Part shown: positions 10,696-39,566 of the stretch, piece by piece
Numbering within the stretch: the stretch's first letter is position 1
Layout: the number at the start of each line of letters is the position of its first letter
Source of the DNA: a virus
IMG/VR virus record: IMGVR_UViG_3300022696_000140
Location: 1 to 55,693 of that record
Direction: 5' to 3' (one strand)
DNA: 55,693 nucleotides
Program-made: the position numbers and the translations under genes
Notes under the pieces: generated by a model
Database searches by the model: none
Seen by the model: only the letters and a program-made list of their open reading frames with translations
Told to the model about the DNA's origin: nothing

Positions 10696-11136
10696 TTATT
10701 TCACTGGCCAAATGTAAGCTCCGTCAATGGGCACATTCCAGTATTTTTTGTAATGTTCCGGATTTTTCCTGCTCAGGTTTGATTGATGGGATTCGTGGAA
10801 TGGTGACCATCCAATCCACCAAGGCATATCAGAGGCTTTTGGAAATCTAAAATTTATGTTAGTAATGTTAGATTCTACCAATTCTAACATTTTGTTTTCG
10901 CAGGTATCTTTATATCCTCTACCTCTCCACTCATGGCAGATAGCACTACCATAATTTAGAAGCATGATCGGATAATCTTTCCACATTTTAACTGCTGGAT
11001 GATTTTTCCATCCATAATCATCGAGCAGAATTGATTTTAAAATCTGAAAAGTCTCAACTCTTTGTTTGCCGAGTCTTTTCATATCCAAAACTGATGCGGA
11101 TTTTTTAAAATCTGGATAAGGTAAAAATGTTTGCAT
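10696..11136 (-). CDS. Pyrimidine-dimer DNA glycosylase-like protein (MSMEG_6728/Pyr_excise type)
   Basis: 146 aa, beginning MQTFLPYPDFKKSASVLDMK, then K-R-L-G-K-Q-R-V-E, H-P-A-V-K-M-W and H-E-W-R-G-R-G-Y-K-D, the conserved blocks of a bacterial and phage family annotated as pyrimidine-dimer DNA glycosylase (T4 DenV-related). Repair of UV damage is inferred from family naming only. It is expressed behind cassette D, with AAGGAAG before the ATG. Confidence 0.7.
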   Translation of the reverse strand: MQTFLPYPDFKKSASVLDMKRLGKQRVETFQILKSILLDDYGWKNHPAVKMWKDYPIMLLNYGSAICHEWRGRGYKDTCENKMLELVESNITNINFRFPKASDMPWWIGWSPFHESHQSNLSRKNPEHYKKYWNVPIDGAYIWPVK

Positions 11137-12594: not shown

Positions 12595-13302
12595 TTAAAT
12601 TTCTTCCTTTTTTGATGGCCTGCCTTTAGGTTTTTTATTTTTAGACATAATATCTTTAGTTATCAATTCCACCTGATTTTCCAATGCTTGTTTAGTTTTA
12701 TTGTTAATAACTTTATAATCCCATTTATCATAATCATCAAGAGCAGTTTCAGATTCGTGTTGATTTTCAATAGATTCTCTCTCAATATATCTTTCAATTC
12801 TTATTTTGTATACATCATACTCAGAACTTGAAAATGCATCTATTTCATTAGGAAATCTAACATCAGTTATTATTATAACATCAGCATCACTATTATTTAT
12901 ATTTTCTTTCAATTTATCTACCCAATAAGAATCACTAACTCTTTTTCTCATTATATTGGTTCCATAAGTCTGCAACAAAGTTCTGGTAATTAAATTCTTA
13001 TCTTCATACCAATTATCATCATTAACCTCAATATCCTTCAATTTATTATTTAATTTAATAAAAGAATCTCTTCTCAATATCTCAAAATTGGCTTGAATTA
13101 AACTTTTTAACTCATTAGAAAATTGGTTTAATGCTTCTATAAAATAAGAAAAATCTTCATTACAATTTTTTTTCAATTCTTTAGCAAAGTATTCATATAT
13201 CGCAGTTTTCTTGTTTTTCTCAAAACATTCTATCATATAATCAGAAAAAGAGTTTTTTCCAGATTGTAATTTACCACTAACCAAAATAACAGTTTTTTTC
13301 AT
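12595..13302 (-). CDS. Deoxynucleoside monophosphate kinase-like protein (T4 gp1 type)
   Basis: P-loop G-K-L-Q-S-G-K-N-S-F (residues ~9-18), a mid-region R-T-L-L-Q-T-Y-G-T-N-I-M-R, and I-I-I-T-D-V-R-F-P-N-E-I, as in phage dNMP kinases, which phosphorylate dNMPs for replication. 235 aa, near the 241 aa of T4 gp1. ATG chosen 5 nt after AGGAG and overlapping the upstream stop (TGATG); a GTG one codon earlier is possible. The Lys-rich tail is atypical. Confidence 0.75.
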   Translation of the reverse strand: MKKTVILVSGKLQSGKNSFSDYMIECFEKNKKTAIYEYFAKELKKNCNEDFSYFIEALNQFSNELKSLIQANFEILRRDSFIKLNNKLKDIEVNDDNWYEDKNLITRTLLQTYGTNIMRKRVSDSYWVDKLKENINNSDADVIIITDVRFPNEIDAFSSSEYDVYKIRIERYIERESIENQHESETALDDYDKWDYKVINNKTKQALENQVELITKDIMSKNKKPKGRPSKKEEI

Positions 13303-13547
13303 CACATCTCCTCATCAAAAAAATTTCCTTTATTAACAATCATAGTTTTAATTTCAACATAAGAATCTTTATTTTTAGCATAAACCTCATATCTACAAGG
13401 ATCATTAGTTTTTTTTATAATAAGAGGATAATTCTCTTTCATTGTTATAGATGTTGCGCTACACTCAACAACACAATTCTGAGGAAAATTATTTCTTAAA
13501 GAGTTTTCCGTTAACCAAATATTAGCAACTTTCTCTACTCTTCCCAT
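13302..13547 (-). CDS. Hypothetical protein, 81 aa
   Basis: No recognised domain; contains two Cys near residues 25-29 and one near 51. It overlaps both neighbours by 1-13 nt, indicating coupled translation with the dNMP-kinase-like gene. Confidence 0.6.
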   Translation of the reverse strand: MGRVEKVANIWLTENSLRNNFPQNCVVECSATSITMKENYPLIIKKTNDPCRYEVYAKNKDSYVEIKTMIVNKGNFFDEEM

Positions 13548-14062
13548 TCAGTCTCTACCTCTTCATCATCATAACCAATATATTGAATTAATTTTCTATC
13601 ACATATAGTACAATGAAAATCTTCATCTGGAATCGTTTTTGCGTCATCCCAACTATAAAACATTCCGCAAGTAGGACAATCCAAATTTAAAAAACTATCC
13701 AAAATTCCATTTTCATTTTCTGGATTATCTGACTCAACTCTATCAATAAATTTTTCACTCTCTTTTTCTGCAAGCTCAATAAAATCTTCTTCTGTGAAAT
13801 TATCACATCTCTGTCCGTTAGGAAGGAGTTTAGTGAATCGCTCTGAATTTAGCCCCATAGCAGAATAATCGAATCTAAAAGAATCAATTTCAATTTCACA
13901 TTCCATATTCTCTAAAACAGAATTGAATTCACTACTCAATTGCTCCGCTGTCATTGCGACACCATCAAGAAATCCTACTAAGTATTGTTTGTCTTTAACT
14001 ACAATAGGAACCCAATAACTAACACCATTATTATCTTTAGGATTCTCATATTTATACAGCAT
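13535..14062 (-). CDS. Hypothetical zinc-binding protein, 175 aa
   Basis: Start placed at MLYKYENPKDN, just after the upstream stop (TAAAATG); a TTG at 14089 or GTG at 14104 with GAGG nearby is possible. The C-terminal half has C-P-T-C-G (residues ~128-132) and C-T-I-C (~148-151), a zinc ribbon, and ends in an acidic tail. Function unknown. Confidence 0.6.
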   Translation of the reverse strand: MLYKYENPKDNNGVSYWVPIVVKDKQYLVGFLDGVAMTAEQLSSEFNSVLENMECEIEIDSFRFDYSAMGLNSERFTKLLPNGQRCDNFTEEDFIELAEKESEKFIDRVESDNPENENGILDSFLNLDCPTCGMFYSWDDAKTIPDEDFHCTICDRKLIQYIGYDDEEVETEWEE

Positions 14063-14063
14063 T

Positions 14064-14462
14064 TTAGTTGGTTTGGTATTTTCTGACAATTTTTTCCACC
14101 TCACTGTTTGACATTAATAATAAATATTCTTTAGCATCTTTCATTCCTATTTGATAATAATTACATAAACAAACTAATTTATTATAATCATCATCTTCTA
14201 TTTTTTCTTTTTTTATAAAACTAAAAAACACCTTTCTCTTAGGTAATGAATTCTTATAATACTCATAATGAACATTTTTAGGAATGTCATATTTATTTAT
14301 TTCATTTACTAACGGAATAAATAGTTCACACATCGAAACCCATTTATTTATAAAAAATTTCTCATAACCTTTTTTAATTTCATCATCACTAAAATCCAAA
14401 TCTTCTTTGGTTGATGTCATTGAATTTAAAAAATAGAATATGTTTTTTTTACTTTTTTTCAT
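14064..14462 (-). CDS. 62: Probable clamp-loader small subunit (gp62-like)
   Basis: 132 aa, start at MKKSKKNIFYFLNS. The order of features matches short gp62 proteins of T4-like marine phages: F-x-x-N-K-W near residue 38, a conserved N-E-I-N, Y-x-x-Y-x-x-x-L-P-K-R-K-x-F-F-S (~67-82), then a Y-Y-Q-I-x-x-x-x-A-x-E-Y-L-L segment near the end. It would join five-subunit gp44/62 and load the gp45 clamp. Assignment rests on remembered family patterns, not a search. The position away from gp44 is unlike T4. Confidence 0.55.
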   Translation of the reverse strand: MKKSKKNIFYFLNSMTSTKEDLDFSDDEIKKGYEKFFINKWVSMCELFIPLVNEINKYDIPKNVHYEYYKNSLPKRKVFFSFIKKEKIEDDDYNKLVCLCNYYQIGMKDAKEYLLLMSNSEVEKIVRKYQTN

Positions 14463-14616
14463 ATATAGAAACAATCTCAAAGTTAAATTTAAAAATTTGA
14501 ATAGAGAACACCCAATTTATATTTAATTTCTTAGCATCTTCTTTAGTATTTATGAGCAACAAAATAAAAGGAAGAAATGCATTTTCTTTACTAAAATAAA
14601 AATCTTTTTCAATCAT
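14449..14616 (-). CDS. Small protein, 55 aa
   Basis: Begins MIEKDFYFSKENAFLPFILLL. Start overlaps the upstream stop by 1 nt (TAATG) and the end overlaps the gp62-like gene by 14 nt. Position between the peptidase and gp62-like genes suggests a real coupled gene. Function unknown. Confidence 0.5.
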   Translation of the reverse strand: MIEKDFYFSKENAFLPFILLLINTKEDAKKLNINWVFSIQIFKFNFEIVSIYEKK

Positions 14617-15089
14617 TATTTACCAAAAACCAAATATCTATTTTGTTTCTTGTTTAAATTTCTACAATCAACATGAACCCAATCCATACCATCAAAATCT
14701 TCAACACCAGTGATATATTTAAAAGCAGGTTCTTTTGGATTTTCCAATATTGTATTTCTCATATTTTTTGCTGACATATTAGGACTAATAAAATCAATAG
14801 CTCTACCAAAAGAATGTTGAGAAGTTTTTTTATAATAAGGACTATCGTTAGTTCTTAGCCCAGACCAATTTCTTAAACCACCCCAACGCCAACTATTTAT
14901 AATTATCGGAACATCAAAATATTCTCTTATCAAATCAGCAGTCATGACTATTCTAATATCCATAGTCAATAATGAATCATCTCCGAGCAAATTGTACATG
15001 TCTCTTGATACAAACTCACAAACATTAAAATATTTTGGGGTATATGAGTGAAAAGATTCTGAATCTTTTTTTCTAAAAAAATTAATCAT
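14616..15089 (-). CDS. M15-type peptidase (D-Ala-D-Ala carboxypeptidase/endolysin fold)
   Basis: 157 aa from MINFFRKK, whose ATG overlaps the preceding 30-aa ORF (ATGA). Zinc-site motif S-Q-H-S-F-G-R-A-I-D-F (residues ~90-100) and W-V-H-V-D-C (~136-141) are the H-x6-D and H of Peptidase M15. Likely cleaves peptidoglycan stem peptides as an endolysin or virion peptidase. No signal peptide. It sits among metabolic genes rather than in a lysis cassette. Confidence 0.75.
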   Translation of the reverse strand: MINFFRKKDSESFHSYTPKYFNVCEFVSRDMYNLLGDDSLLTMDIRIVMTADLIREYFDVPIIINSWRWGGLRNWSGLRTNDSPYYKKTSQHSFGRAIDFISPNMSAKNMRNTILENPKEPAFKYITGVEDFDGMDWVHVDCRNLNKKQNRYLVFGK

Positions 15090-15178
15090 ACACCACTTAC
15101 CCACTCATGACCGATCTTAATATTTTTATAAAAATCTTCAACTTTACTTTCAATTAAAAACTTTTTGAATTTAGACAT
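15086..15178 (-). CDS. 30-aa ORF ahead of the peptidase
   Basis: MSKFKKFLIESKVEDFYKNI..., with a good AGGAG 6 nt upstream and an ATGA overlap into the peptidase gene. It may be a short real protein or a translational leader supplying ribosomes to the peptidase. Confidence 0.45.
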   Translation of the reverse strand: MSKFKKFLIESKVEDFYKNIKIGHEWVSGV

Positions 15179-15187
15179 GTAAAACTC

Positions 15188-15949
15188 CTAAAGAACAACC
15201 TCTTCTATATTTTCATTTTCAAAATCTCTAACATTAAAATCTTCTTTTGTTATTGGAAAATTCTTTCCTTTTGAAATCCATTTTTTAGTAAAAATATCTT
15301 TTTGTTTATTCCAAGAAGGTTTAAAAGCACCGTTTCCGGGTGATGAGTGTAACAAAAATATGTCAGCAACAGCCACTTTATAACCCATTTCCAAAACTTT
15401 AAAACAAATATCTAAATCATAAAAATCATACCCATCAAAATTCTCACTATCAAATCTCAAACCATTCAATAATAGTTCCCCTCTAACAGCAAAGAAAAAG
15501 CCATCAACACAAACAAGATCATCAAAAAAACCAACAGAACCTTTAACCAAATGATAAGATTGAGCACCGTTCTCTTGTTGTAAATGACCTCTCAAATCTT
15601 TTGAATCATTCATCCACCACGCACATTTTTCATTTAATTTTTTTGAACCAACAACACCTAAAACACCAACATCTCTTTTTTGATCAAACACATGTTGAAT
15701 CTTATTTTTAAAAAATGGGTCTAACAAAGAAACATCCTCATGTATAAAACATATAACATCATCATTACCAATAGAGTTTTGGCTTAATAGTTGTTCTATA
15801 CCATGATTATATTTTAAAAATATGCTTTTCTGCTCTTCGCCCTTTGTTTGCATTATTTCAGCACACATTATACGATGTTCAGTCAAACTTTTTTTTAAAT
15901 AATCCTCATACTTCTGCTCATTGTTTACAGCACACATTACTTTAACCAT
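15188..15949 (-). CDS. Glycosyltransferase family 2-like protein
   Basis: 253 aa, Rossmann-like opening (MVKVMCAVNNEQKYEDYL), C-F-I-H-E-D-V-S-L-L-D-P (residues ~67-78) as the Asp-containing nucleotide-sugar motif, D-G-F-F-F-A-V-R (~148-155), and F-D-G-Y-D-F-Y-D-L-D-I-C (~167-178). These blocks fit GT-A enzymes of the glycosyltransferase-like family. Substrate unknown: cell-surface sugars, virion glycans or modified DNA bases. Confidence 0.75.
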   Translation of the reverse strand: MVKVMCAVNNEQKYEDYLKKSLTEHRIMCAEIMQTKGEEQKSIFLKYNHGIEQLLSQNSIGNDDVICFIHEDVSLLDPFFKNKIQHVFDQKRDVGVLGVVGSKKLNEKCAWWMNDSKDLRGHLQQENGAQSYHLVKGSVGFFDDLVCVDGFFFAVRGELLLNGLRFDSENFDGYDFYDLDICFKVLEMGYKVAVADIFLLHSSPGNGAFKPSWNKQKDIFTKKWISKGKNFPITKEDFNVRDFENENIEEVVL

Positions 15950-15951
15950 AT

Positions 15952-16806
15952 TTAAACACTCACAGGATAAGAAATAAAAGAATCGTGTTCATAATCTACT
16001 AACTCAATATCTTTATATTTCCATTCAAATATATTTTTAAAATTTTTAATATAAAGATTTGGTAATTTTTTAGGAGTTCTTTTCAATTGGACATTCTTGA
16101 CTTTATCTAATTGATTTTTATATATATGCACATTGGATAAAAACCCAGTCAAACATCCTTCTTTATATCCAGTTTCTTGACACAATAGTTTTAATAGTAA
16201 AGCATATTGAGCAATGTTAAATGGTAGTCCAATAGGAACATCAACACTTCTCTGATACCATGTTAAATTCAATCTATTACCAATAATATCAACTTTCCAT
16301 AAAACATGGCAGGGGGGTAAAGCCATATGATCTAATGCTAAAGGATTCCAAGAACTACACAAAAGTCTTCTATTGTTAGGATCAGATCGAATTTTATCTA
16401 TAATAAATTTCAATTGATCGACCTTAGTTGAATTTTCGACATTCGGATCACTAAAACCTCTCCACTGGACACCATAAATTTCACCCAAATCATTTTCTTT
16501 TTTCATATCTTGTAGAGTTTTTAGGTTTGTTCCATATTTAACTTTTTTAGGATTAGCCCAATTATCCCATATATGACAATCTCTGTCATGTAGAAATTTT
16601 TTATTGCCAACACCTTTAATAAACATTTCAAGTTCAGCGGACACCTTATAAATATTTATCTTTTTAGTTGTTAACAATGGAAAACCATTTTTCATATCGT
16701 GCTTAAACATTGTGGATGGTATTGTTAGACAATCTTCACCAGTCCTGGTAGAAACCCAATTCCCATTGTCGATAACATCCTGTAAAATATTCAAATATCC
16801 AATCAT
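15952..16806 (-). CDS. thyA: Thymidylate synthase (ThyA)
   Basis: 284 aa. Catalytic Cys in A-L-P-P-C-H-V-L-W (residues ~161-169), Y-Q-R-S-V-D-V-P-I-G-L-P-F-N-I-A (~184-199), Y-G-V-Q-W-R-G-F (~110-117) and V-H-I-Y (~227-230). The Asn of F-N-I-A, which selects dUMP over dCMP, is retained, so this makes dTMP rather than hydroxymethyl-dCMP. It supplies thymine nucleotides for an AT-rich genome together with the ribonucleotide reductase. Confidence 0.95.
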   Translation of the reverse strand: MIGYLNILQDVIDNGNWVSTRTGEDCLTIPSTMFKHDMKNGFPLLTTKKINIYKVSAELEMFIKGVGNKKFLHDRDCHIWDNWANPKKVKYGTNLKTLQDMKKENDLGEIYGVQWRGFSDPNVENSTKVDQLKFIIDKIRSDPNNRRLLCSSWNPLALDHMALPPCHVLWKVDIIGNRLNLTWYQRSVDVPIGLPFNIAQYALLLKLLCQETGYKEGCLTGFLSNVHIYKNQLDKVKNVQLKRTPKKLPNLYIKNFKNIFEWKYKDIELVDYEHDSFISYPVSV

Positions 16807-16810
16807 AATA

Positions 16811-17050
16811 TTATTTTTCTCTTTCTTCTATTTCTATCCGTTTTAATATACCATACCACTCAGAGGATGGTGCTTTAAATCCCAAAGAAGTTAAATGATG
16901 ATCATTCTTTAAAATAGCAATCGCAATGGCCCTATATGATGGCGCAAAATTTAAATCTTCTATTCTAATAGGAACTTCATCTGGAATATCTTCTGGATAG
17001 CCTTTATCCTTCCAGTTATTTATGTATTCTTCTATCTTTTTTTTAACCAT
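16811..17050 (-). CDS. Small protein sharing the IbrA C-terminal motif, 79 aa
   Basis: The segment P-S-Y-R-A-I-A-I-A-I-L-K-N-D-H-H-L (residues ~37-53) resembles W-K-R-L-A-I-T-I-L-K-N-D-H-V-C near the end of the PP-loop protein at 18342-19661. It looks like a free-standing copy of that C-terminal module. It sits at the distal end of the Ibr-like operon. Confidence 0.65.
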   Translation of the reverse strand: MVKKKIEEYINNWKDKGYPEDIPDEVPIRIEDLNFAPSYRAIAIAILKNDHHLTSLGFKAPSSEWYGILKRIEIEEREK

Positions 17051-17430
17051 TCAACCAACCTCTCAAGTGCTAAATTATCCGCTTTTTGTTGATTTTCTAA
17101 AGACAGTAGTTTAAATCCATGTCTAAATATTGAAGGTATTTTCATATCATAACACACTGATGCCTGACCAATCCATGCAATTCTATTAATAGAGGGATTT
17201 GTTAAAAACTGTTCGCATGAATATGGCCAATTATCAAAAACGTTATTAATATTATCATTAAACCTTTTTAAATCTTCTAAAAAGAAACAATACTCTAAAA
17301 CACAATCATCTTTATCTAAATTTTTAGGGGGAACGGTATCAAAAAAACCATATTTAACACACTCCCACTTTTCCCAATGGTGATATATTCTTTCGACTTT
17401 AGGTATTTTTAATTTTTTGTTCATACTCAT
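17032..17430 (-). CDS. Ibr-module associated protein, 132 aa
   Basis: Opens with K-I-P-K-V-E-R-I-Y-H-H-W-E-K-W-E-C, then W-P-Y-S-C-E-Q-F-L-T-N-x-x-I-N-R-I-A-W-I-G-Q-A (residues ~68-90) and F-R-H-G-F. From memory this combination accompanies DUF3440/ParB genes in phages. No catalytic motif identified. It overlaps IbrB upstream and the 79-aa gene downstream, so all three are made together. Confidence 0.65.
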   Translation of the reverse strand: MSMNKKLKIPKVERIYHHWEKWECVKYGFFDTVPPKNLDKDDCVLEYCFFLEDLKRFNDNINNVFDNWPYSCEQFLTNPSINRIAWIGQASVCYDMKIPSIFRHGFKLLSLENQQKADNLALERLVEWLKKR

Positions 17431-17956
17431 CTATATCAAAATCCTCATCGACTTCCCAAGATTCAGAAAACGATTTATTCTCAAAAAGACTTGCAACTCC
17501 AGTTATTTGCTTTAAACGAAGTAATTCATCTTTAGACATTCCAATATGTTTACATATCCAAGCATCACCCTTCCCCATTTCTACTAATTCAGAAACTATG
17601 CTAGACATAAGATCGACATTGTGAGAGCCTCTTGCTCTATTATGTCTAATTGTAGATGCCATTCTATCACTAATATCTTTTTCAATAACAACAACAGGCA
17701 ACATACCATTTTCTCTATCATATATTCTTTTACTATTTTTAATAGTTAAATATCTATGAAAACCATCAACAACAATATACAAATCTTGATCGGAATCATA
17801 AAAAGTCACGACTGGTTGAGTATAACCATCTTCCCATATAGAAACTTCTAACAATTCCATTTCTGGTGGTGCCACAGAATTTGGGTTATAATCATTAGCT
17901 TTAACTTTTTCAATAGGAACTGCAATAACATTATACACTGGAGATTTGAATGACAT
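17399..17956 (-). CDS. ibrB: ParB-like nuclease-domain protein (IbrB-like)
   Basis: 185 aa. ParB/sulfiredoxin-fold N-terminus: N-D-Y-N-P-N (residues ~21-26), V-V-D-G-F-H-R-Y (~62-69) and R-H-N-R-A-R-G-S-H (~104-112), followed by a helix-turn-helix-like region (C-K-H-I-G-M-S-K-D-E-L-L-R-L). This is the partner of IbrA-type proteins, known in E. coli as activators of eib genes. The biochemical role is unresolved. Adjacent to the EctC-like gene. Confidence 0.8.
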   Translation of the reverse strand: MSFKSPVYNVIAVPIEKVKANDYNPNSVAPPEMELLEVSIWEDGYTQPVVTFYDSDQDLYIVVDGFHRYLTIKNSKRIYDRENGMLPVVVIEKDISDRMASTIRHNRARGSHNVDLMSSIVSELVEMGKGDAWICKHIGMSKDELLRLKQITGVASLFENKSFSESWEVDEDFDIDEYEQKIKNT

Positions 17957-17961
17957 ACCAA

Positions 17962-18345
17962 TTACCTTTCATAAGAACCATCAGTAGAATGAACTTCTCT
18001 ACCTTTAAGTGGTGGATTAAAAACACATATCAATATAGTTTCTTCTAAAGCCAAAAAACTATGTGCATCATTATCATCTAAAATATATATAAAATCTTTT
18101 TCTATAATAAACTGTTCTTTCGTTTTTTCATTTGTGACAATACCCCTTCCTGAAATACAATAACAAGATTCTAAATGATTCTTATAGTGCCAAAAATATG
18201 GCCCACCTTTATTAACAATGGTTTTTGTTAATGTATACCCCATAGAATCGCTTTCTAATAAAATTCTTAATGAAATAAAATTATTTTTAGGACAAATAAC
18301 TTCTCTTTCAGTATTTTTCAAATCATCTACTTTCACAACTTTCAT
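17962..18345 (-). CDS. Ectoine synthase-like cupin (EctC family)
   Basis: 127 aa, full length for EctC (~130). Conserved blocks: N-F-I-S-L-R-I-L-L (residues ~22-30), W-H-Y-K-N-H-L-E-S-C-Y-C-I-S-G (~52-66), I-Y-I-L-D-D-N-D-A-H (~86-95) and C-V-F-N-P-P-L-K-G-R-E-V-H (~107-119). The Glu, Tyr and His that bind iron in characterised EctC enzymes appear conserved. EctC closes N-gamma-acetyl-diaminobutyrate to ectoine. No EctA or EctB is in the window, so it acts on a host intermediate or a different substrate. Its ATG overlaps the IbrA stop (ATGA). Confidence 0.85.
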   Translation of the reverse strand: MKVVKVDDLKNTEREVICPKNNFISLRILLESDSMGYTLTKTIVNKGGPYFWHYKNHLESCYCISGRGIVTNEKTKEQFIIEKDFIYILDDNDAHSFLALEETILICVFNPPLKGREVHSTDGSYER

Positions 18346-19661
18346 TTTTTTCTACCTTTAATGTCTATTTTTTTATACTTTTCTTGAATATATCTCTGCC
18401 TCTCCATTTGTTTTTTTGTAGGAGCCAACCCAAGATATTTACAAACATGATCGTTTTTTAAAATAGTAATAGCTAATCTTTTCCAAGAAGCAACATCAGA
18501 ATTATGACAGGATAAAAAATCTAAATGATCTGGATAATGTGGTAATTTTACTAAATCCATATTCTTATTCCCATGTGCAGTTTTTCCTCCTATTTTAAAA
18601 TAAACACCATACTCTTTTAGTTCATTTATTGTTTTTTGGGGCAATCCGCGACCCACTCTACCCCAAACAATGATAGACTGAATGAATCGAATTTTAAAAT
18701 TTTCAGAAACCTCTTTCGGTAAAGTATTTAATAAAAATTTAGTAAAACTTTTCCATGTATGATTAGGCGGCAATTTGAAACTTCTATAATTTAACTGTTT
18801 TCCATATGTAGCAATAAAATTAGCACCACCAACTCTAGCACAAAGTTTAGCCCAAACGTTAGGGTCTATCACTCTATACAATCCTAATGAAGATTTAGAT
18901 TCACTCATAAAAGGAGAAGCCACTCTCATTTGATGTATAGACAATCCAGCTTTATAAAAAATATCATACAATTTATTATAATCCCATTCAAATTTAGCAT
19001 TAGCAATCCAAACGTCTTCTGTTTTCCAATCGTATATTGGGTAGCAATTATACACATAATCAGTGTTCTTTTTAGTCCACATATGACCACCATGAACTGT
19101 TTTACGTGTGTTCATAATAGACCTAAATCTATTTAAAGATTCCGCAGTTCTAATACCAATCAAACACGCCGTTTCTTTTCCTTGAGAATACCAATCACCA
19201 AACTTATCCCAAAATTCATCATAATTCATATTTTCTTTAAAAAAGTCGAAATTGTGATTTTTTAAATTAACAACATATTCTTCTTTTGGCATAGGTCTAA
19301 TCCACTTATCTTTATCATCCTCACCCCAACATTGCCAATCTACAGAATAAGAACTAATAGTACATGGTAATGTTATAGGCAAACAACACCAATAAACATC
19401 TAATAAATCTAAATTATCTTTAATTATTTTATGCATAAAATTTAAAGAATGTTCATAATTTGCTTCATTATCTAATGTCATCAACCCTATTTTTTTTGTT
19501 ATATTATTTTTTCTCATATAATCTAAAACCAAATTCAACATAACTCCACTATCTTTACCCCCAGAAAAAGATAGATATATTCTTTCAAAATTATTGAATA
19601 TATATTCTACTCTTTCAATGGATGCTACATATACATTTTTATTTTTATTGTATTTTCTCAT
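18342..19661 (-). CDS. ibrA: PP-loop phosphoadenosine-phosphosulfate-reductase-like protein (IbrA-like, DUF3440)
   Basis: 439 aa. PP-loop S-F-S-G-G-K-D-S-G (residues ~31-39) of N-type ATP pyrophosphatases. Then G-I-R-T-A-E-S-L-N-R-F (~165-175), Y-N-C-Y-P-I-Y-D-W-K-T-E-D-V-W (~204-218), and the DUF3440 extension with a C-terminal I-L-K-N-D-H motif. Related enzymes activate substrates by adenylation; PAPS reductase and DndC are better-known relatives. Good GGAG before the ATG. Heads the five-gene Ibr-like operon. Confidence 0.85.
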   Translation of the reverse strand: MRKYNKNKNVYVASIERVEYIFNNFERIYLSFSGGKDSGVMLNLVLDYMRKNNITKKIGLMTLDNEANYEHSLNFMHKIIKDNLDLLDVYWCCLPITLPCTISSYSVDWQCWGEDDKDKWIRPMPKEEYVVNLKNHNFDFFKENMNYDEFWDKFGDWYSQGKETACLIGIRTAESLNRFRSIMNTRKTVHGGHMWTKKNTDYVYNCYPIYDWKTEDVWIANAKFEWDYNKLYDIFYKAGLSIHQMRVASPFMSESKSSLGLYRVIDPNVWAKLCARVGGANFIATYGKQLNYRSFKLPPNHTWKSFTKFLLNTLPKEVSENFKIRFIQSIIVWGRVGRGLPQKTINELKEYGVYFKIGGKTAHGNKNMDLVKLPHYPDHLDFLSCHNSDVASWKRLAITILKNDHVCKYLGLAPTKKQMERQRYIQEKYKKIDIKGRKK

Positions 19662-20550: not shown

Positions 20551-21495
20551 TTACTCCCTTATGATTCTCATCAATTCTATTAAAAGTGCTGAAAAATTAA
20601 TTTCTTTATTTATAACAAATGAATTTCTATATTCATATTCAGCAATTTCTAAAATTGCTTGAGGCCTCTTTTGTGGTGGAATTTTAGGTAAAAGATTATC
20701 ATAAAAATCTTTAAACAACTCTTCAACGTTATAATTTTTTTCAATTATAAATTTTCTTGCCTTTTCAAATTTAGCTTCTAATATATAATCATATAAAGAA
20801 TCGTCAATTTTTAAATAGTCAAAAATATTATCATCGATTCTACCATTAATATTAGAATACTTTTGACAGTTTTGTATAAGACTTCGAATGTCTGGAAAAT
20901 AAACATCGACCAATTTTACAATAGTGTCTAATGAATATTCAATATTATTATTTTTTAAAATAGCTGCCATTTTTTTAATAACCATTGGTTTCATCTGCTG
21001 TACATTTTTTTCATCTTTAAAATTAAAATCAAAAGACTGTACTCTTGATAAAAGTGGCGTTATTATTTTAGACTTATAATTGCATGTTAAAATAAATCTA
21101 CAACTATTGTGATATTTTTCAATAAATCCTCTTAAAGAATCTTGTAGTGCTCTTGTTGCACCATCAAACTCATCTAAGATCACAACTTTAGGCTTTCCAG
21201 ACAAAGATTTAACACACGCATAATTTTCTATTCTATTTCTAACAACATCAATACCATTTTCTAAAGATGAATTTATATATAAATAATCAGCATCCATTTC
21301 TAAACAAATAGCTTTTGCTAAAGTGGTTTTTCCACTTCCTGGATTTGAGCTATATAATAAGAGATTTGGTATGTTTTTTTCTTTGATGGCTTTTGAAAAA
21401 AACATTTTATAACTTCTTGGTAGAATTATATTCTTCAACGTTAGAGGTCTATATCGCTCAACCCATAGAAACTGATTCTTTTTATCTACTGCCAT
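20551..21495 (-). CDS. 44: Clamp-loader AAA+ ATPase (gp44)
   Basis: 314 aa from MAVDKKNQFLW (T4 gp44 is 319). Walker A N-P-G-S-G-K-T-T-L-A (residues ~51-60), Walker B V-V-I-L-D-E-F-D (~98-105), arginine-finger region L-L-S-R-V-Q-S-F (~149-156). With gp62 it opens the gp45 ring at primer ends. The GAGG site lies inside the 3' end of the upstream gene. Confidence 0.93.
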   Translation of the reverse strand: MAVDKKNQFLWVERYRPLTLKNIILPRSYKMFFSKAIKEKNIPNLLLYSSNPGSGKTTLAKAICLEMDADYLYINSSLENGIDVVRNRIENYACVKSLSGKPKVVILDEFDGATRALQDSLRGFIEKYHNSCRFILTCNYKSKIITPLLSRVQSFDFNFKDEKNVQQMKPMVIKKMAAILKNNNIEYSLDTIVKLVDVYFPDIRSLIQNCQKYSNINGRIDDNIFDYLKIDDSLYDYILEAKFEKARKFIIEKNYNVEELFKDFYDNLLPKIPPQKRPQAILEIAEYEYRNSFVINKEINFSALLIELMRIIRE

Positions 21496-21916
21496 TATTA
21501 ATACTACCTCTTTTTTTATTTGATAGTGCAATTTGTTTACTATATTTTCTTCTCATTCTACGATTCATAAAAGTTAGATTGTTTTGAAAGTTTTCTCTAT
21601 TCTTTTTTCTATCTTCCTTTGAATATATACATGGACACGGAATAGGTCTTTTATTTTTATGGTCGACACCAATAACTCCTACACCATTACAATCTCTACA
21701 ACTTTTATTTGGATTATTAACCTCCAAACCCAATTTTTGAGAAATCAATTTTATCTGTTGGAATTTTGTTAAATTCTTTTGATCAATTATTTCATTAGTT
21801 TCTTCATCAATAAAAGCATTATTGTTAGCCTCAATATCATAATCTGGTGTATAATAATCATCCAAATTAAAATCTAAATTATCATCCAAAAATTCTTCAT
21901 TTTCTTCGTTTGTCAC
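21482..21916 (-). CDS. Acidic protein with DnaJ-like zinc knuckles, 144 aa
   Basis: Start set at GTG (MTNEENEEFLDD), 5 nt after GGAGG. Acidic N-terminal half, then C-R-D-C-N-G-V-G-V-I-G ... C-P-C-I-Y (residues ~73-96) like the C-x2-C-x-G-x-G zinc repeats of DnaJ. The basic C-terminus (MNRRMRRKY) could bind nucleic acid. Overlaps the gp44 start. Confidence 0.65.
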   Translation of the reverse strand: MTNEENEEFLDDNLDFNLDDYYTPDYDIEANNNAFIDEETNEIIDQKNLTKFQQIKLISQKLGLEVNNPNKSCRDCNGVGVIGVDHKNKRPIPCPCIYSKEDRKKNRENFQNNLTFMNRRMRRKYSKQIALSNKKRGSINNGSR

Positions 21917-21933
21917 AAATCCCTCCAAAAAAG

Positions 21934-22950
21934 TCAAAAAAACTGTTTTTTGTTTCTTTTATTATAATATTTTTCTATTGATTTAGCAACAGCACAAATA
22001 ACTTGAGGATTAACTGATCGAGCCAATCTTTCATATTTTTGTTTCCACGCACCAACTAATATAAAATCGTCTGGGAATCCCATCAACCTCTTAACTTCTT
22101 TTATTGTATGTCTTCTTTTTTCAAAAGGATGACATATACCACGAGCTGAAACATCAGATTCTGTTTGAACTAATGTACGACTCGGAAGATCCCATCTATT
22201 TTTTCCAAAATTGAATGCTTTATAATGATTTTCTCCAACATTTACAGAATCATAAAATTCGTATGCTTTGTATTTATTGGCGGCTTCAAATAAAAATTTT
22301 AATTCATCTGGATCATTTTTTATATTTTCAATAGCATCTTTAACAGATATTTTTTCTGAACTATATGTCGGGTTAGGATATGTAAAAGACCTATATAACA
22401 AATCATTTCGAACAGAAACAAAAATAACTCTTTCTCTATTTTGTGGAGCACCGAAATCAGTACCATTCAAAATTTTATAAAAACAAGTATAACCAATTTT
22501 CATAAATTGATGAACTATTTCATTTAAAACTTTTTTTGATTCGCCAATAGTTAACCCCTTAACATTTTCATTGACACAAAATTTCGGTCTTATCTGATCA
22601 GCCAATCTTATAAATTCAAAAAACAAATCATCAACTCTTTGCTTCTTGCTAGAATATGCTTTTACTTTGTTCCAGCCTTTTTCTCTTATGCCACTCATAG
22701 AAAAAGATGCACAAGGAGGACTACCGTCTAATATATCTAATTCACCAACATTCAAATTTAACTCTTTTAAAATATCCTCACCACACACATTTCTAACATC
22801 ATCAAAAAAAACTTTTGCATCTGGAAAATTTTTTTTATAACAATCGACAGCATTTTCTATAAATTCTACACAAGCCAGAACATCCATTCCAGCCATCTTA
22901 TAACCTAAGCTAGATCCACCACATCCAGAAAATGTACTAACAACTTTCAT
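21934..22950 (-). CDS. Cytosine-C5 DNA methyltransferase with altered motif X
   Basis: 338 aa from MKVVSTFSGCGG, whose ATG overlaps the CmoA-like stop (ATGA). Motif I F-S-G-C-G-G-S-S; IV G-S-P-P-C-A-S-F with the catalytic Cys; VI E-N-V; VIII Q-N-R-E-R-V; IX/target region R-H-T-I-K-E-V-K-R-L-M-G-F-P. The expected motif X Q-x-G-N-[AS]-V is L-A-R-S-V-N-P (residues ~314-320): the near-invariant Gly-Asn is Ala-Arg (Arg codon CGA at 22018-22020). All catalytic residues are intact, so the enzyme should be active, possibly with a non-standard cofactor. No restriction partner nearby. Confidence 0.93.
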   Translation of the reverse strand: MKVVSTFSGCGGSSLGYKMAGMDVLACVEFIENAVDCYKKNFPDAKVFFDDVRNVCGEDILKELNLNVGELDILDGSPPCASFSMSGIREKGWNKVKAYSSKKQRVDDLFFEFIRLADQIRPKFCVNENVKGLTIGESKKVLNEIVHQFMKIGYTCFYKILNGTDFGAPQNRERVIFVSVRNDLLYRSFTYPNPTYSSEKISVKDAIENIKNDPDELKFLFEAANKYKAYEFYDSVNVGENHYKAFNFGKNRWDLPSRTLVQTESDVSARGICHPFEKRRHTIKEVKRLMGFPDDFILVGAWKQKYERLARSVNPQVICAVAKSIEKYYNKRNKKQFF

Positions 22951-23609
22951 TTTATACATAAAATCCCTACAAATTTTTGAGATTGCCAAAAAGTAGTTAC
23001 TTTTGAAAATCCAACATTTTTACACAATTCAATATTTTCTTCCAATGACATTTTTTTCATCATGTGAATTAGTTGATTATCTTTTTCAAAAATCTCTTCC
23101 AAACTAAAATTTTTTCTTTTATGATTATATATACTATTCTGCATTATAAAATCTAACTCAGAAAAATAATCAACCTTTTCACTAAAAACAAAACACCCCT
23201 TATTGTTTAACCATTTATATATTTTTTCAATTAATATCTTCCTTTTATTTAATGGAATGAAAACTAATGTAAAAAGAGAATAGACAAAAGAACAATTATC
23301 AAATTCCATGTTTAATATATCATCATTCAAAAAATTTATATTTTCATAATTTTTATAATATTTCTCAAAGGATTTTTCTATCTCAATTGCATAATAAGAA
23401 ACGTTTTTTTTAAAAACTGACATGTCTAAATAAATATCATTTAACATTTTTCCTGTAGAACTACCAATATCAACAACATTAGTATAATCATCAATAAAAT
23501 ATTTTGATATATCTTTAACATCCTGACACAATGAATCATAGTCTCTAATTGAATTAAAAATATGCTCATCAAATTCATTAGCCATATTTTTAAAAGAAAA
23601 AGTTTTCAT
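22947..23609 (-). CDS. CmoA-like SAM-dependent enzyme (possible carboxy-SAM synthase)
   Basis: 220 aa class I SAM fold: V-V-D-I-G-S-S-T-G-K (residues ~46-55), Y-A-I-E-I-E (~73-78), N-D-D-I-L (~95-99). The second half follows E. coli CmoA closely in order: F-T-L-V-F-I-P at NFTLQFLEP, K-I-Y-K-W-L-N at KIYQGLN, C-F-V-F-S-E-K at ALVLSEK, H-K-R-K-N-F at FKRANGY. CmoA makes carboxy-S-adenosylmethionine from SAM and prephenate. In my hand alignment the column of CmoA Arg199, which contacts the carboxylate, holds Asp, so the product is uncertain. Translationally coupled to the DNA methyltransferase. Confidence 0.75.
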   Translation of the reverse strand: MKTFSFKNMANEFDEHIFNSIRDYDSLCQDVKDISKYFIDDYTNVVDIGSSTGKMLNDIYLDMSVFKKNVSYYAIEIEKSFEKYYKNYENINFLNDDILNMEFDNCSFVYSLFTLVFIPLNKRKILIEKIYKWLNNKGCFVFSEKVDYFSELDFIMQNSIYNHKRKNFSLEEIFEKDNQLIHMMKKMSLEENIELCKNVGFSKVTTFWQSQKFVGILCIK

Positions 23610-24350
23610 TTAGAAGTCTGCTTCAAACTCTCTCGCGACAATCCCCAAATCGATATTATCATCATTCATATAATCAAATTTAACAAAATGCTCACTATCT
23701 CCATCAGAATCGGTTTCTTTAAAGATAGACACTCTATAATTCAAATCTGGTAGAATTGAAATTGATGTTTTTGAAATATTAAAATCAAAATCTTTATTAT
23801 TATCTTCAAGCTCCAATTTCTTTTCATAAGAGTTGCTATGATTACTATTGTGTAATAACACATTAACACTTGAGTCTTTTGAAGTCAACTTTACTTGTTG
23901 AATATCCAAAAGATTGGCAAACTTTTTCAATTCTTTAATAACAGAACTACTCAAATCAAAAGAAGCTAACAAATTTTTAAAACCAAATTTTTCAATTTCT
24001 TCATTTTTTGATAAAATGTCTGGGTCTTGTGTGGCATATCTTATTTTATTGGTATCTTTACTAACCTCAAAAAGAACTCTATCGATTTCAGAATCGACTT
24101 TAACACCAATATCAGGAGATTCAAAAGTATTAACCAATTGGTAGAATTCATTGAATTTAGTGAAGAAAATTTTCTCAGTCTTATCGGTAAAATCGAAAAG
24201 CTCTTTTTCAAATCTCAAAATATACGGATTGAATGAATTGTTTCTAGAACTACTAACGATGCTATCACCTTTACTACTAAGAATGATTTTGTTTTCTGAC
24301 ATTCCAGAAATTCGATCCAACAAATCCAAAACATTTTTATTGTACTTCAT
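23610..24350 (-). CDS. 45: Sliding clamp (gp45-like)
   Basis: 246 aa, close to T4 gp45 (228). Placed two genes upstream of the clamp loader region. Composition and layout fit a clamp: two similar halves, each with a strand-rich core, an N-terminal K-Y-N-K-N-V-L-D-L-L-D-R-I-S-G helix as in other gp45 proteins, and an acidic C-terminus. It tethers gp43 and, in T4, activates gp55-dependent late transcription. The CmoA-like ATG directly follows its stop. Confidence 0.75.
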   Translation of the reverse strand: MKYNKNVLDLLDRISGMSENKIILSSKGDSIVSSSRNNSFNPYILRFEKELFDFTDKTEKIFFTKFNEFYQLVNTFESPDIGVKVDSEIDRVLFEVSKDTNKIRYATQDPDILSKNEEIEKFGFKNLLASFDLSSSVIKELKKFANLLDIQQVKLTSKDSSVNVLLHNSNHSNSYEKKLELEDNNKDFDFNISKTSISILPDLNYRVSIFKETDSDGDSEHFVKFDYMNDDNIDLGIVAREFEADF

Positions 24351-27572: not shown

Positions 27573-27774
27573 TGTGCAATCCTTTTGAATTGTTAAAATA
27601 ATCTAAAAATTCTTCTAACTCAAATATCCTAGATTTTAAATCTTTAACACTATACTTATATTTTCCACTATTCAATATAGTTTTTAAAATATCTATAGAA
27701 TATTTGATTTCATCTCTACTCATACTCTGAACAGGTTTCCTAAACGCATGATTAGTACCAAAACAATTATTCAT
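27553..27774 (-). CDS. Hypothetical protein, 73 aa
   Basis: MNNCFGTNHAFRKPVQSM, then a helical region. Its start overlaps the gp4 stop (ATGA) and its end overlaps the metallophosphoesterase gene by 20 nt. No recognisable domain. Confidence 0.6.
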   Translation of the reverse strand: MNNCFGTNHAFRKPVQSMSRDEIKYSIDILKTILNSGKYKYSVKDLKSRIFELEEFLDYFNNSKGLHNGKRNN

Positions 27775-28259
27775 AATAAATTTAAATCTTTCTTATTTAT
27801 CAAAACAAACTTATATCCTTTTTTATTGCAGTATTTTATTGCAGACTCCCATTTATTTTTATTCTCTACATATTTTTTCATAGCATATTGATAATTTTCT
27901 ACTGATTTTTTGGTTTTTCTTTTTGGTTCTTTTGGTTTGTTAGAATAGTCAAAACCCCTCTCTGTTAGTATAGGGCCTTGCTTTTCTGGTTTAATTTCAA
28001 CGATATATTTTTGTATTTTACCATTCTTATCTAAAACTTCCATGTACCCATCAGTGATATACGTTCTTTTTTTATTTTCAATCTCATACAAATATGGAAT
28101 GTTTACTAATTCACTTGCCCATCTAACAACATTAGTGTTGTGGTCACAATAATACATCCATCTTTCCTCCCAACTACTACGAAAGAAGGGAGAATTTTTG
28201 CCAATATATTTTTTAGGATTTTTTAATTCGTAGTAATCTTGTTTCCATGTGCTACTCAA
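27771..28259 (-). CDS. 4: Head-completion protein, gp4-like
   Basis: 162 aa. K-N-P-K-K-Y-I-G-K (residues ~13-21), F-R-S-S-W-E-E-R-W-M (~26-35), N-V-V-R-W-A-S-E (~43-50), I-P-Y, and a Y-I-V-E-I-K-P strand (~84-90) are the conserved blocks of T4 gp4/50/64, which have an endonuclease-like fold and finish the packaged head before tail joining. It is transcribed with early genes here, as in several T4 relatives. Confidence 0.9.
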   Translation of the reverse strand: MSSTWKQDYYELKNPKKYIGKNSPFFRSSWEERWMYYCDHNTNVVRWASELVNIPYLYEIENKKRTYITDGYMEVLDKNGKIQKYIVEIKPEKQGPILTERGFDYSNKPKEPKRKTKKSVENYQYAMKKYVENKNKWESAIKYCNKKGYKFVLINKKDLNLL

Positions 28260-38363: not shown

Positions 38364-39566
38364 TTAATTGAACATGTATTTTATAAATTTTTCAATATAG
38401 ATGTTAGACTCTAAATACCATCCATTGTCATCTAATTGCTCATACTGCTTTTGAATAACCTCATTAAATCTATCAGGCTCACACAATTCTCTAAGAATCA
38501 AATCATCTAATTGTTCAATGGTAACATCATCAGGAACGTTAATAATATTTTTATCATATGGACTTGGAAAATCACATTTAAAATATGTTCCGATACCAAT
38601 AGAACCGCTTGCACAAGCCTCTTGATATTTTATTTCTGATTTAGAAAAATTGAAATGGTTTCTAACAAGAGGAGCAATGTTGAAATGTGCTCCATAATTT
38701 AAAACAGGTTGATGATAGTGTAAAGTATCTACCCATTTCATATATTTTATTTTGTCTTTAATTTCTTCAAAAAAGAATGGAAGTCCGCCCATACAGAAAA
38801 AATCTATTTTATCATCTTTAACATTTTTTATAACCCACTCTAACCAATCACCACTTTCCCAGTCACCCTTCAATTTTCTACGTTGGCAATAATGGGTCGG
38901 CGATCCAGTGTAAATAACTTTTGGTTTTTCTATCCTACTAACAATAGGTTGTCTTTTTCTATTTCCCCATAGATATTTAGGAATACTATTATTTAAAACT
39001 TCAATAGGAACGTCTATTTTTTTAGATAGAAAACTTTTCAAATATTCAGAACTAACAACAACAGTATCCATCATTTTCATTATTTCAATTGATGAATCTC
39101 CAACACTGCTTTTAATGTTCATAGAAGCAGGATTGTATGTTGGCAGGCCCTCATAGCTATCAGGGCTTTTCCAAATCCAATCATCTATATCATACACCAT
39201 TTTATAGCCTAACTGTGTTTGTGCCTTCTTATATTGAGCTATAGTGTCAATCTTATCACTATCCATAACTCTCTGAAAAAACAAAGATTTTGCTCTAATC
39301 AATATTTCTTTTTGTGTTATGAAAAAAGGAGCAATAAAAGGAATCATTTTCTTTTGTTTAGCAAACACAGCATTCATGTAAGTTAGTGGTAAAATATTTC
39401 TTATGTGCCCACAACCACTCGGATCACTAACAAAAGAAACAAAAACATTTTTTAAAATGGGATGTAAATTTTTAGATGATTGTGTTGATGATTTTATATC
39501 TCTATTTGGATTGTCTAATTGTTTTTGAAAAACATCCATATTAGATGTTGGTATATTATTTTCCAT
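38364..39566 (-). CDS. Glycosyltransferase, GT4/GT-B-like, 400 aa
   Basis: GT-B type: S-D-P-S-G-C-G-H-I-R (residues ~48-57), V-Y-D-I-D-D-W-I-W (~123-131), V-V-V-S-S-E-Y-L (~168-175), I-Y-T-G-S-P-T-H (~212-219) and the sugar-nucleotide end A-P-L-V-R-N-H-F-N-F-S-K-S-E-I-K-Y-Q-E-A (~296-315). Sited between DNA polymerase and gp47, unlike a surface-glycan gene, so a DNA-base or virion substrate is possible. Confidence 0.75.
   Translation of the reverse strand: MENNIPTSNMDVFQKQLDNPNRDIKSSTQSSKNLHPILKNVFVSFVSDPSGCGHIRNILPLTYMNAVFAKQKKMIPFIAPFFITQKEILIRAKSLFFQRVMDSDKIDTIAQYKKAQTQLGYKMVYDIDDWIWKSPDSYEGLPTYNPASMNIKSSVGDSSIEIMKMMDTVVVSSEYLKSFLSKKIDVPIEVLNNSIPKYLWGNRKRQPIVSRIEKPKVIYTGSPTHYCQRRKLKGDWESGDWLEWVIKNVKDDKIDFFCMGGLPFFFEEIKDKIKYMKWVDTLHYHQPVLNYGAHFNIAPLVRNHFNFSKSEIKYQEACASGSIGIGTYFKCDFPSPYDKNIINVPDDVTIEQLDDLILRELCEPDRFNEVIQKQYEQLDDNGWYLESNIYIEKFIKYMFN

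Follow-up and report, generated by a model that had tools for sequence, protein, structure and literature searches.

The viral DNA studied here (the window, that is, the whole stretch of 55,693 nucleotides) carries two coupled genes that very probably form a unit making carboxy-SAM (Cx-SAM) and carboxymethylating the cytosines of the phage DNA. In all likelihood, the CmoA-like product supplies Cx-SAM and the CmoX-like product makes 5-carboxymethylcytosine (5cxmC), probably protecting against host nucleases. A natural carboxymethylcytosine system had been suggested for this locus in an earlier note, and this reading is supported by its match to the biochemistry of the Synechococcus phage S-B43 (PMC12783734), by the shared key residues and by the genomic coupling. 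The window pair is a divergent new member of a kind published in December 2025 (PMC12783734), and hence not the first case. The observed gene anatomy, homology, residue conservation, fold and linkage of the motif-X Arg to CmoA are presented below.

The gene pair and its genomic setting

A natural 5cxmC system has been shown in S-B43 (Yang et al., Nat Commun, December 2025; PMC12783734). In this phage, CmoA (SpCmoA) converts SAM and prephenate into Cx-SAM, and does so more rapidly than E. coli CmoA; CmoX (SpCmoX) moves the carboxymethyl group to the C5 position of cytosines that lie within a GC motif of the DNA, a modification that blocks HhaI in vitro; and the CmoY ligase adds glycine, the virion DNA containing this amide with glycine but lacking free 5cxmC (PMC12783734). 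The motif-X Arg350 of SpCmoX contacts the Cx-SAM carboxylate, and the wild-type enzyme accepts only Cx-SAM, while the R350N form uses neither cofactor (PMC12783734). The same study defined 5615 CmoX candidates by the presence of SPPC and a motif-X Arg and found 2251 ligases accompanying them (PMC12783734). SpCmoX is the sole CmoX enzyme to have been assayed.

In the window, the overlap that the earlier note had read between the CmoA-like gene and the transferase gene is present as described, both open reading frames lying on the minus strand, with the cmoA-like stop TGA at 22947-22949 and the cmoX-like ATG at 22948-22950 (Table 1).

Table 1. Coordinates of the gene pair, its neighbours and the ectoine-synthase-like cassette in the window
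Feature	Position	Strand	Evidence
gp45-like sliding clamp, stop abuts cmoA start	23610..24350	-	phrog_223 4.7e-14, PF09116 weak
cmoA-like gene (220 aa; predicted carboxy-SAM synthase)	22947..23609	-	phmmer, NCBIfam, AlphaFold fold match
ATGA overlap of cmoA stop and cmoX start (translational coupling)	22947..22950	-	direct sequence reading
cmoX-like gene (338 aa; predicted DNA cytosine C5-carboxymethyltransferase)	21934..22950	-	PF00145, 8YF3 sequence and fold match
Catalytic Cys80 codon in GSPPC, equivalent to SpCmoX Cys98	22711..22713	-	alignment; invariant in 150 relatives
Motif-X Arg311 codon (CGA), equivalent to SpCmoX Arg350	22018..22020	-	alignment
151-aa protein overlapping cmoX stop	21482..21937	-	without Pfam or PHROG match
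gp44-like clamp loader subunit	20551..21531	-	PF00004, Gp44_lid PF21328
Four-gene cassette	17032-19661	-	ectoine-synthase-like cupin PF06339 2e-40

The record is a 55.7-kb fragment of a T4-like phage, with a gp43-type polymerase, gp44, gp45, a gp62-type clamp loader, gp32, a UvsX-like RecA, a DnaB-type helicase, a gp20-type portal and a gp2-type end protector. The pair is embedded in a run consisting of the clamp, cmoA, cmoX, one small gene and the clamp loader gp44; the small gene, which encodes the 151-aa protein, is not a conserved partner (one match among the CmoX/CmoA loci).

We infer that the divergent pair carries out the two reactions of its S-B43 homologues; its target motif and its benefit are inferred as well. 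CmoA would convert SAM and prephenate into Cx-SAM. CmoX would flip a cytosine out of the DNA, its Cys80 would attack C6, and the carboxymethyl group would be transferred to C5 while the motif-X Arg311 holds the carboxylate of the cofactor. The predicted product is 5cxmC within a short sequence motif that the target-recognition domain would determine. Expression of both proteins would coincide with that of the replisome, since their genes share one operon-like run with the clamp and the clamp loader, and 5cxmC would most likely shield the DNA from host nucleases. Base composition was considered as a hint to the target motif and is uninformative, the dinucleotide GC being near expectation (0.92) and CG low (0.58).

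A reading that we regard as a serious possibility, though as somewhat less likely than not, is that 5cxmC serves as no more than a handle, which a ligase encoded elsewhere in the genome turns into an amide or a larger adduct as the final base. This reading is compatible with the proposed 5cxmC synthesis, to which it would add a further step. It is favoured by the many ligases accompanying the published CmoX candidates, by the glycine amide of S-B43 and by the fact that the record is only part of a T4-like genome. Against it, HMMs of both CmoY types and PF00733 detected no ligase in the 55.7-kb record, and beside the pairs of Synechococcus phage S-CRM01 and of a phage group with a terminase-3 (L168) no ligase was detected either. 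Because no CmoY amide ligase was found on the record, 5cxmC may be the end product, or genes beyond the fragment may modify it; this lack of a ligase on the record also counts against the proposed 5cxmC system.

A hydroxymethylated base was also considered and rejected. The GLPFNIA Asn is typical of dUMP enzymes. The thymidylate synthase homologue encoded at 15952-16806 matches thymidylate synthase models and keeps this Asn, and there is therefore no sign of a dCMP hydroxymethylase. This gene belongs to a minus-strand region (12595-16806) that also encodes a dNMP kinase and a GT2-like glycosyltransferase, and a second glycosyltransferase-like protein is encoded at 38364-39566. Elsewhere in the window, also on the minus strand, we noticed a protein with a TnsA-like endonuclease domain (27771-28259) and a DenV-like pyrimidine-dimer DNA glycosylase (10696-11136).

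The motif-X Arg transferase and its linkage to CmoA

The window transferase possesses both SPPC and the motif-X Arg that define the published candidates (PMC12783734). A second record of this phage, IMGVR_UViG_3300022671_000061, likewise fits that definition. Its best sequence match in the PDB is SpCmoX (8YF3; E=6e-62, 212.7 bits, the next match scoring 91.6), a relationship which, judged by these alignment scores, is far beyond chance. An AlphaFold model built from a 22-row alignment (pLDDT 88.6) likewise has 8YF3 as its best fold match (E=2.9e-28, TM 0.80). In the alignment, Phe25, Glu47, Phe48, Asp69, Cys98 and Arg350 of SpCmoX correspond to Phe7, Glu29, Phe30, Asp51, Cys80 and Arg311 of the window protein, and every cofactor-binding residue named for SpCmoX is thus conserved.

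Motif X reads R-L-A-R-S-V-N-P (residues 308-315), as the earlier note had it, with Arg311 standing where the usual Asn would be. The remaining catalytic motifs are intact, as had also been stated: GSPPC (residues 76-80, with Cys80), ENV (Glu128) and RxR (Arg172/Arg174) are present and do not vary across 150 aligned homologues, a set that also contains near-identical copies. The motif-X Arg had been presented as an oddity, which holds in comparison with ordinary C5 methyltransferases and not within the protein's own family, where Arg occupies the position in every aligned CmoX relative that extends over it (148/148). In a quick maximum-likelihood tree the Arg-type transferases group together, with a Leu-type side branch nested among them, and the window protein falls on the Arg side (support 87), as an early, long branch outside the supported clade of SpCmoX; together with SpCmoX being the only CmoX assayed, this position appears to count against the proposed 5cxmC system.

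The linkage between motif X and CmoA was analysed in viral contigs selected with two DNA patterns that match the C5-transferase catalytic motif and are blind to both motif X and CmoA. In this pattern-anchored sample, a CmoA was present in the fetched flank of 37/49 Arg types, and of 0/111 Asn, 0/31 Met and 0/4 Leu types, with a Fisher p of about 1e-28 for sequences that are not independent. Clustering at 60% identity left a CmoA linked in all 7 of the 7 Arg clusters and in none of the 68 Asn/Met/Leu clusters. Among the 12 unlinked Arg types, four were examined further and one was found to have a CmoA elsewhere on its contig; the other 11 of the 49 have none on the contig sequence at hand, many of these contigs being short, and they count to that extent against the proposed 5cxmC system. 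The earlier note had named a motif-X Arg common in homologues without a CmoA neighbour as a finding that would speak against its reading; the linkage observed here does not refute it. The CmoA-CmoX pair was also found in unrelated phages, including the terminase-3 group, in which no window gene was matched beyond the pair itself. Natural 5cxmC systems would thus reach a deep, divergent lineage as well as unrelated phage types, and the combination of a motif-X Arg with CmoA offers a rule by which to recognise them.

These data also bear on the view that the window transferase is an ordinary SAM-using 5-methylcytosine enzyme, the adjoining CmoA-like gene serving, for example, the cmo5U modification of host tRNA. 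This view, which we hold to be very unlikely, draws on strong matches to PF00145 (6e-60) and to Dcm models, on the early branching outside the assayed clade and on the unusual substitutions of the window CmoA. It is opposed by the carboxylate-binding role of the equivalent Arg in SpCmoX and the cofactor requirements of the wild-type and R350N enzymes, by the fact that Asn- and Met-type viral transferases never had a CmoA neighbour in our sample and by the search of window proteins, which revealed no recognisable CmoB-like gene.

Three other groups of transferases were observed in the course of this analysis. First, the Leu types (L257, L258, L328 and L345; motif ARIGLMVAP) branch together as a small clade within the CmoX Arg types; they have no CmoA on the contig sequence at hand, which is short, and they possibly lost the use of Cx-SAM. 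This change from Arg to Leu in the absence of CmoA speaks for the proposed 5cxmC system. Second, 31 GSPPC C5 methyltransferases form a Met-type clade (YLIGMSVPP; including L249, L259, L260, L288, L306 and L338) with no CmoA nearby, and in 13 loci a recurrent ParB-domain protein adjoins the Met-type transferase. Third, in one locus (L435:11834-14311), a CmoA-like gene stands directly upstream of a GFPCQ-type C5 methyltransferase fused to a ParB-like domain; its motif X (QYRRCSGIPPV) has Ser for Asn, making it a Ser type with a CmoA-like neighbour, and it possibly represents a second, independent recruitment of Cx-SAM by a different C5-methyltransferase lineage.

The CmoA-like protein and the Arg199 position

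The window CmoA-like protein matches YecO/CmoA (1im8; phmmer E=1.6e-17) and E. coli CmoA (1.7e-13 to 2.6e-14), which by these scores places the relationship far beyond chance. Its AlphaFold model (pLDDT 91.6) best matches 1im8, followed by the CmoA structures 4gek/4iwn (TM 0.84-0.90), and the resemblance in sequence and fold spans the full length of the protein. The best NCBIfam match is the CmoA model TIGR00740, at 85.9 bits, which is under the cut-off of 193.3. Because the assayed SpCmoA is likewise under it (115.6 bits), this cut-off describes the bacterial CmoA branch. Glu164, Lys165 and other near-invariant positions are kept. Two oddities were found: a Val in the column of E. coli Gln136, where 127/129 phage CmoAs have Gln, and a Ser where nearly all phage CmoAs have Cys. 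Together with the score under the NCBIfam cut-off, these substitutions appear to count against the proposed 5cxmC system.

Bacterial CmoA binds the carboxylate through Arg199, which is the sole carboxylate contact in E. coli CmoA (PMC3663124, PMC4482062). The earlier note had cautioned that this column holds Asp in the window protein and that the cofactor might differ. The Asp is confirmed, and the bacterial Arg199 salt bridge is absent; as a sign against Cx-SAM, however, the caution does not stand, since the assayed SpCmoA has Glu at this position. The 129 phage CmoAs have Glu in 120 cases, Gln in seven, Asp in one and a gap in one. On this alignment, the loss of Arg199 appears as a feature of the phage branch that is compatible with Cx-SAM synthesis, and the Arg199 test derived from bacterial CmoA must not be used on phage CmoAs.

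The proposal that the CmoA-like enzyme makes another SAM derivative, and that the base carries another group, is therefore one to which we give very little credence: the Asp in place of the sole carboxylate contact and the Val in the Gln136 column speak for it, but SpCmoA outpaces E. coli CmoA as a Cx-SAM synthase with an acidic residue at the same place, the column holds Glu in nearly all phage CmoAs, and the window CmoX keeps the Arg that binds the carboxylate.

A separate cassette, and comparison with known systems

A four-gene cassette lies a few kilobases from the pair and comprises a DUF3440/PAPS-reductase-like (IbrA-like) PP-loop protein, an ectoine-synthase-like cupin (EctC), a ParB-like protein and a 132-aa protein (Table 1). 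EctC closes an N-acyl diamine. Because it acts on such a substrate, a link with 5cxmC is attractive, in which the carboxymethyl group would first receive a diamine through the PP-loop enzyme, and ring closure by the EctC-like enzyme would then leave an ectoine-like ring on the cytosine. We consider this extremely unlikely and rejected the cassette as a part of the 5cxmC pathway, since it occurs in about 80 viral loci without a nearby CmoA/CmoX and is missing from other CmoX loci. Its EctC was found in 80 viral contigs and five phage records, with the same gene order in 74/83 viral loci, and in Mycobacterium phage Gaia EctC and ParB are joined in one protein. In the fetched flanks (up to 10 kb) of the examined EctC loci, no CmoA/CmoX was found besides that of the window phage, four loci having a distant, ordinary Asn-type C5 methyltransferase; the 18 whole records searched gave no CmoX and two weak matches to ordinary C5 methyltransferases only; and the cassette is absent from all the other 159 CmoA/CmoX-anchored loci. 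It is a module separate from the CmoA-CmoX pair, for whose function no description was found in the literature searched; it may serve DNA modification or regulation in its own right.

The closest known system is the CmoA-CmoX(-CmoY) of S-B43. Both phages have a CmoA homologue and a GSPPC C5 transferase with a motif-X Arg, the named cofactor-binding and catalytic residues, the fold, a short operon with overlapping genes and a cyanomyovirus (T4-like) background. The window differs in that its proteins are only 41% and 41% identical to the assayed S-B43 CmoA and to S-B43 CmoX, respectively; in that no CmoY lies between or beside the two genes; in the motif-X context, LARSVNP as opposed to VGRMVPP in SpCmoX; in the Gln136-to-Val substitution; and in a lineage that branches outside the SpCmoX clade. 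Similarly to the window, S-CRM01 (NC_015569) has CmoA directly followed by CmoX with an overlap and no adjoining ligase, within the replication cluster from gp45-gp44-gp62 to gp43; the identity is about 40%, and the window pair lies between gp45 and gp44, whereas the S-CRM01 pair lies after gp62. In M.MpeI N374K, exchange of the motif-X Asn for a basic residue enables a C5 methyltransferase to use carboxy-SAM (cited in PMC12783734), but this is an engineered CpG enzyme, whereas the Arg of the window protein is natural and belongs to a separate natural clade. Finally, the bacterial CmoA proteins (E. coli 4GEK/4IWN; H. influenzae YecO, 1IM8) share with the window CmoA the fold, most SAM-site positions and Glu164 and Lys165; they differ from it at the Arg199 column, which is acidic in the window as in phage CmoAs generally, and in their partner, which is CmoB in bacteria and a DNA transferase in the window.
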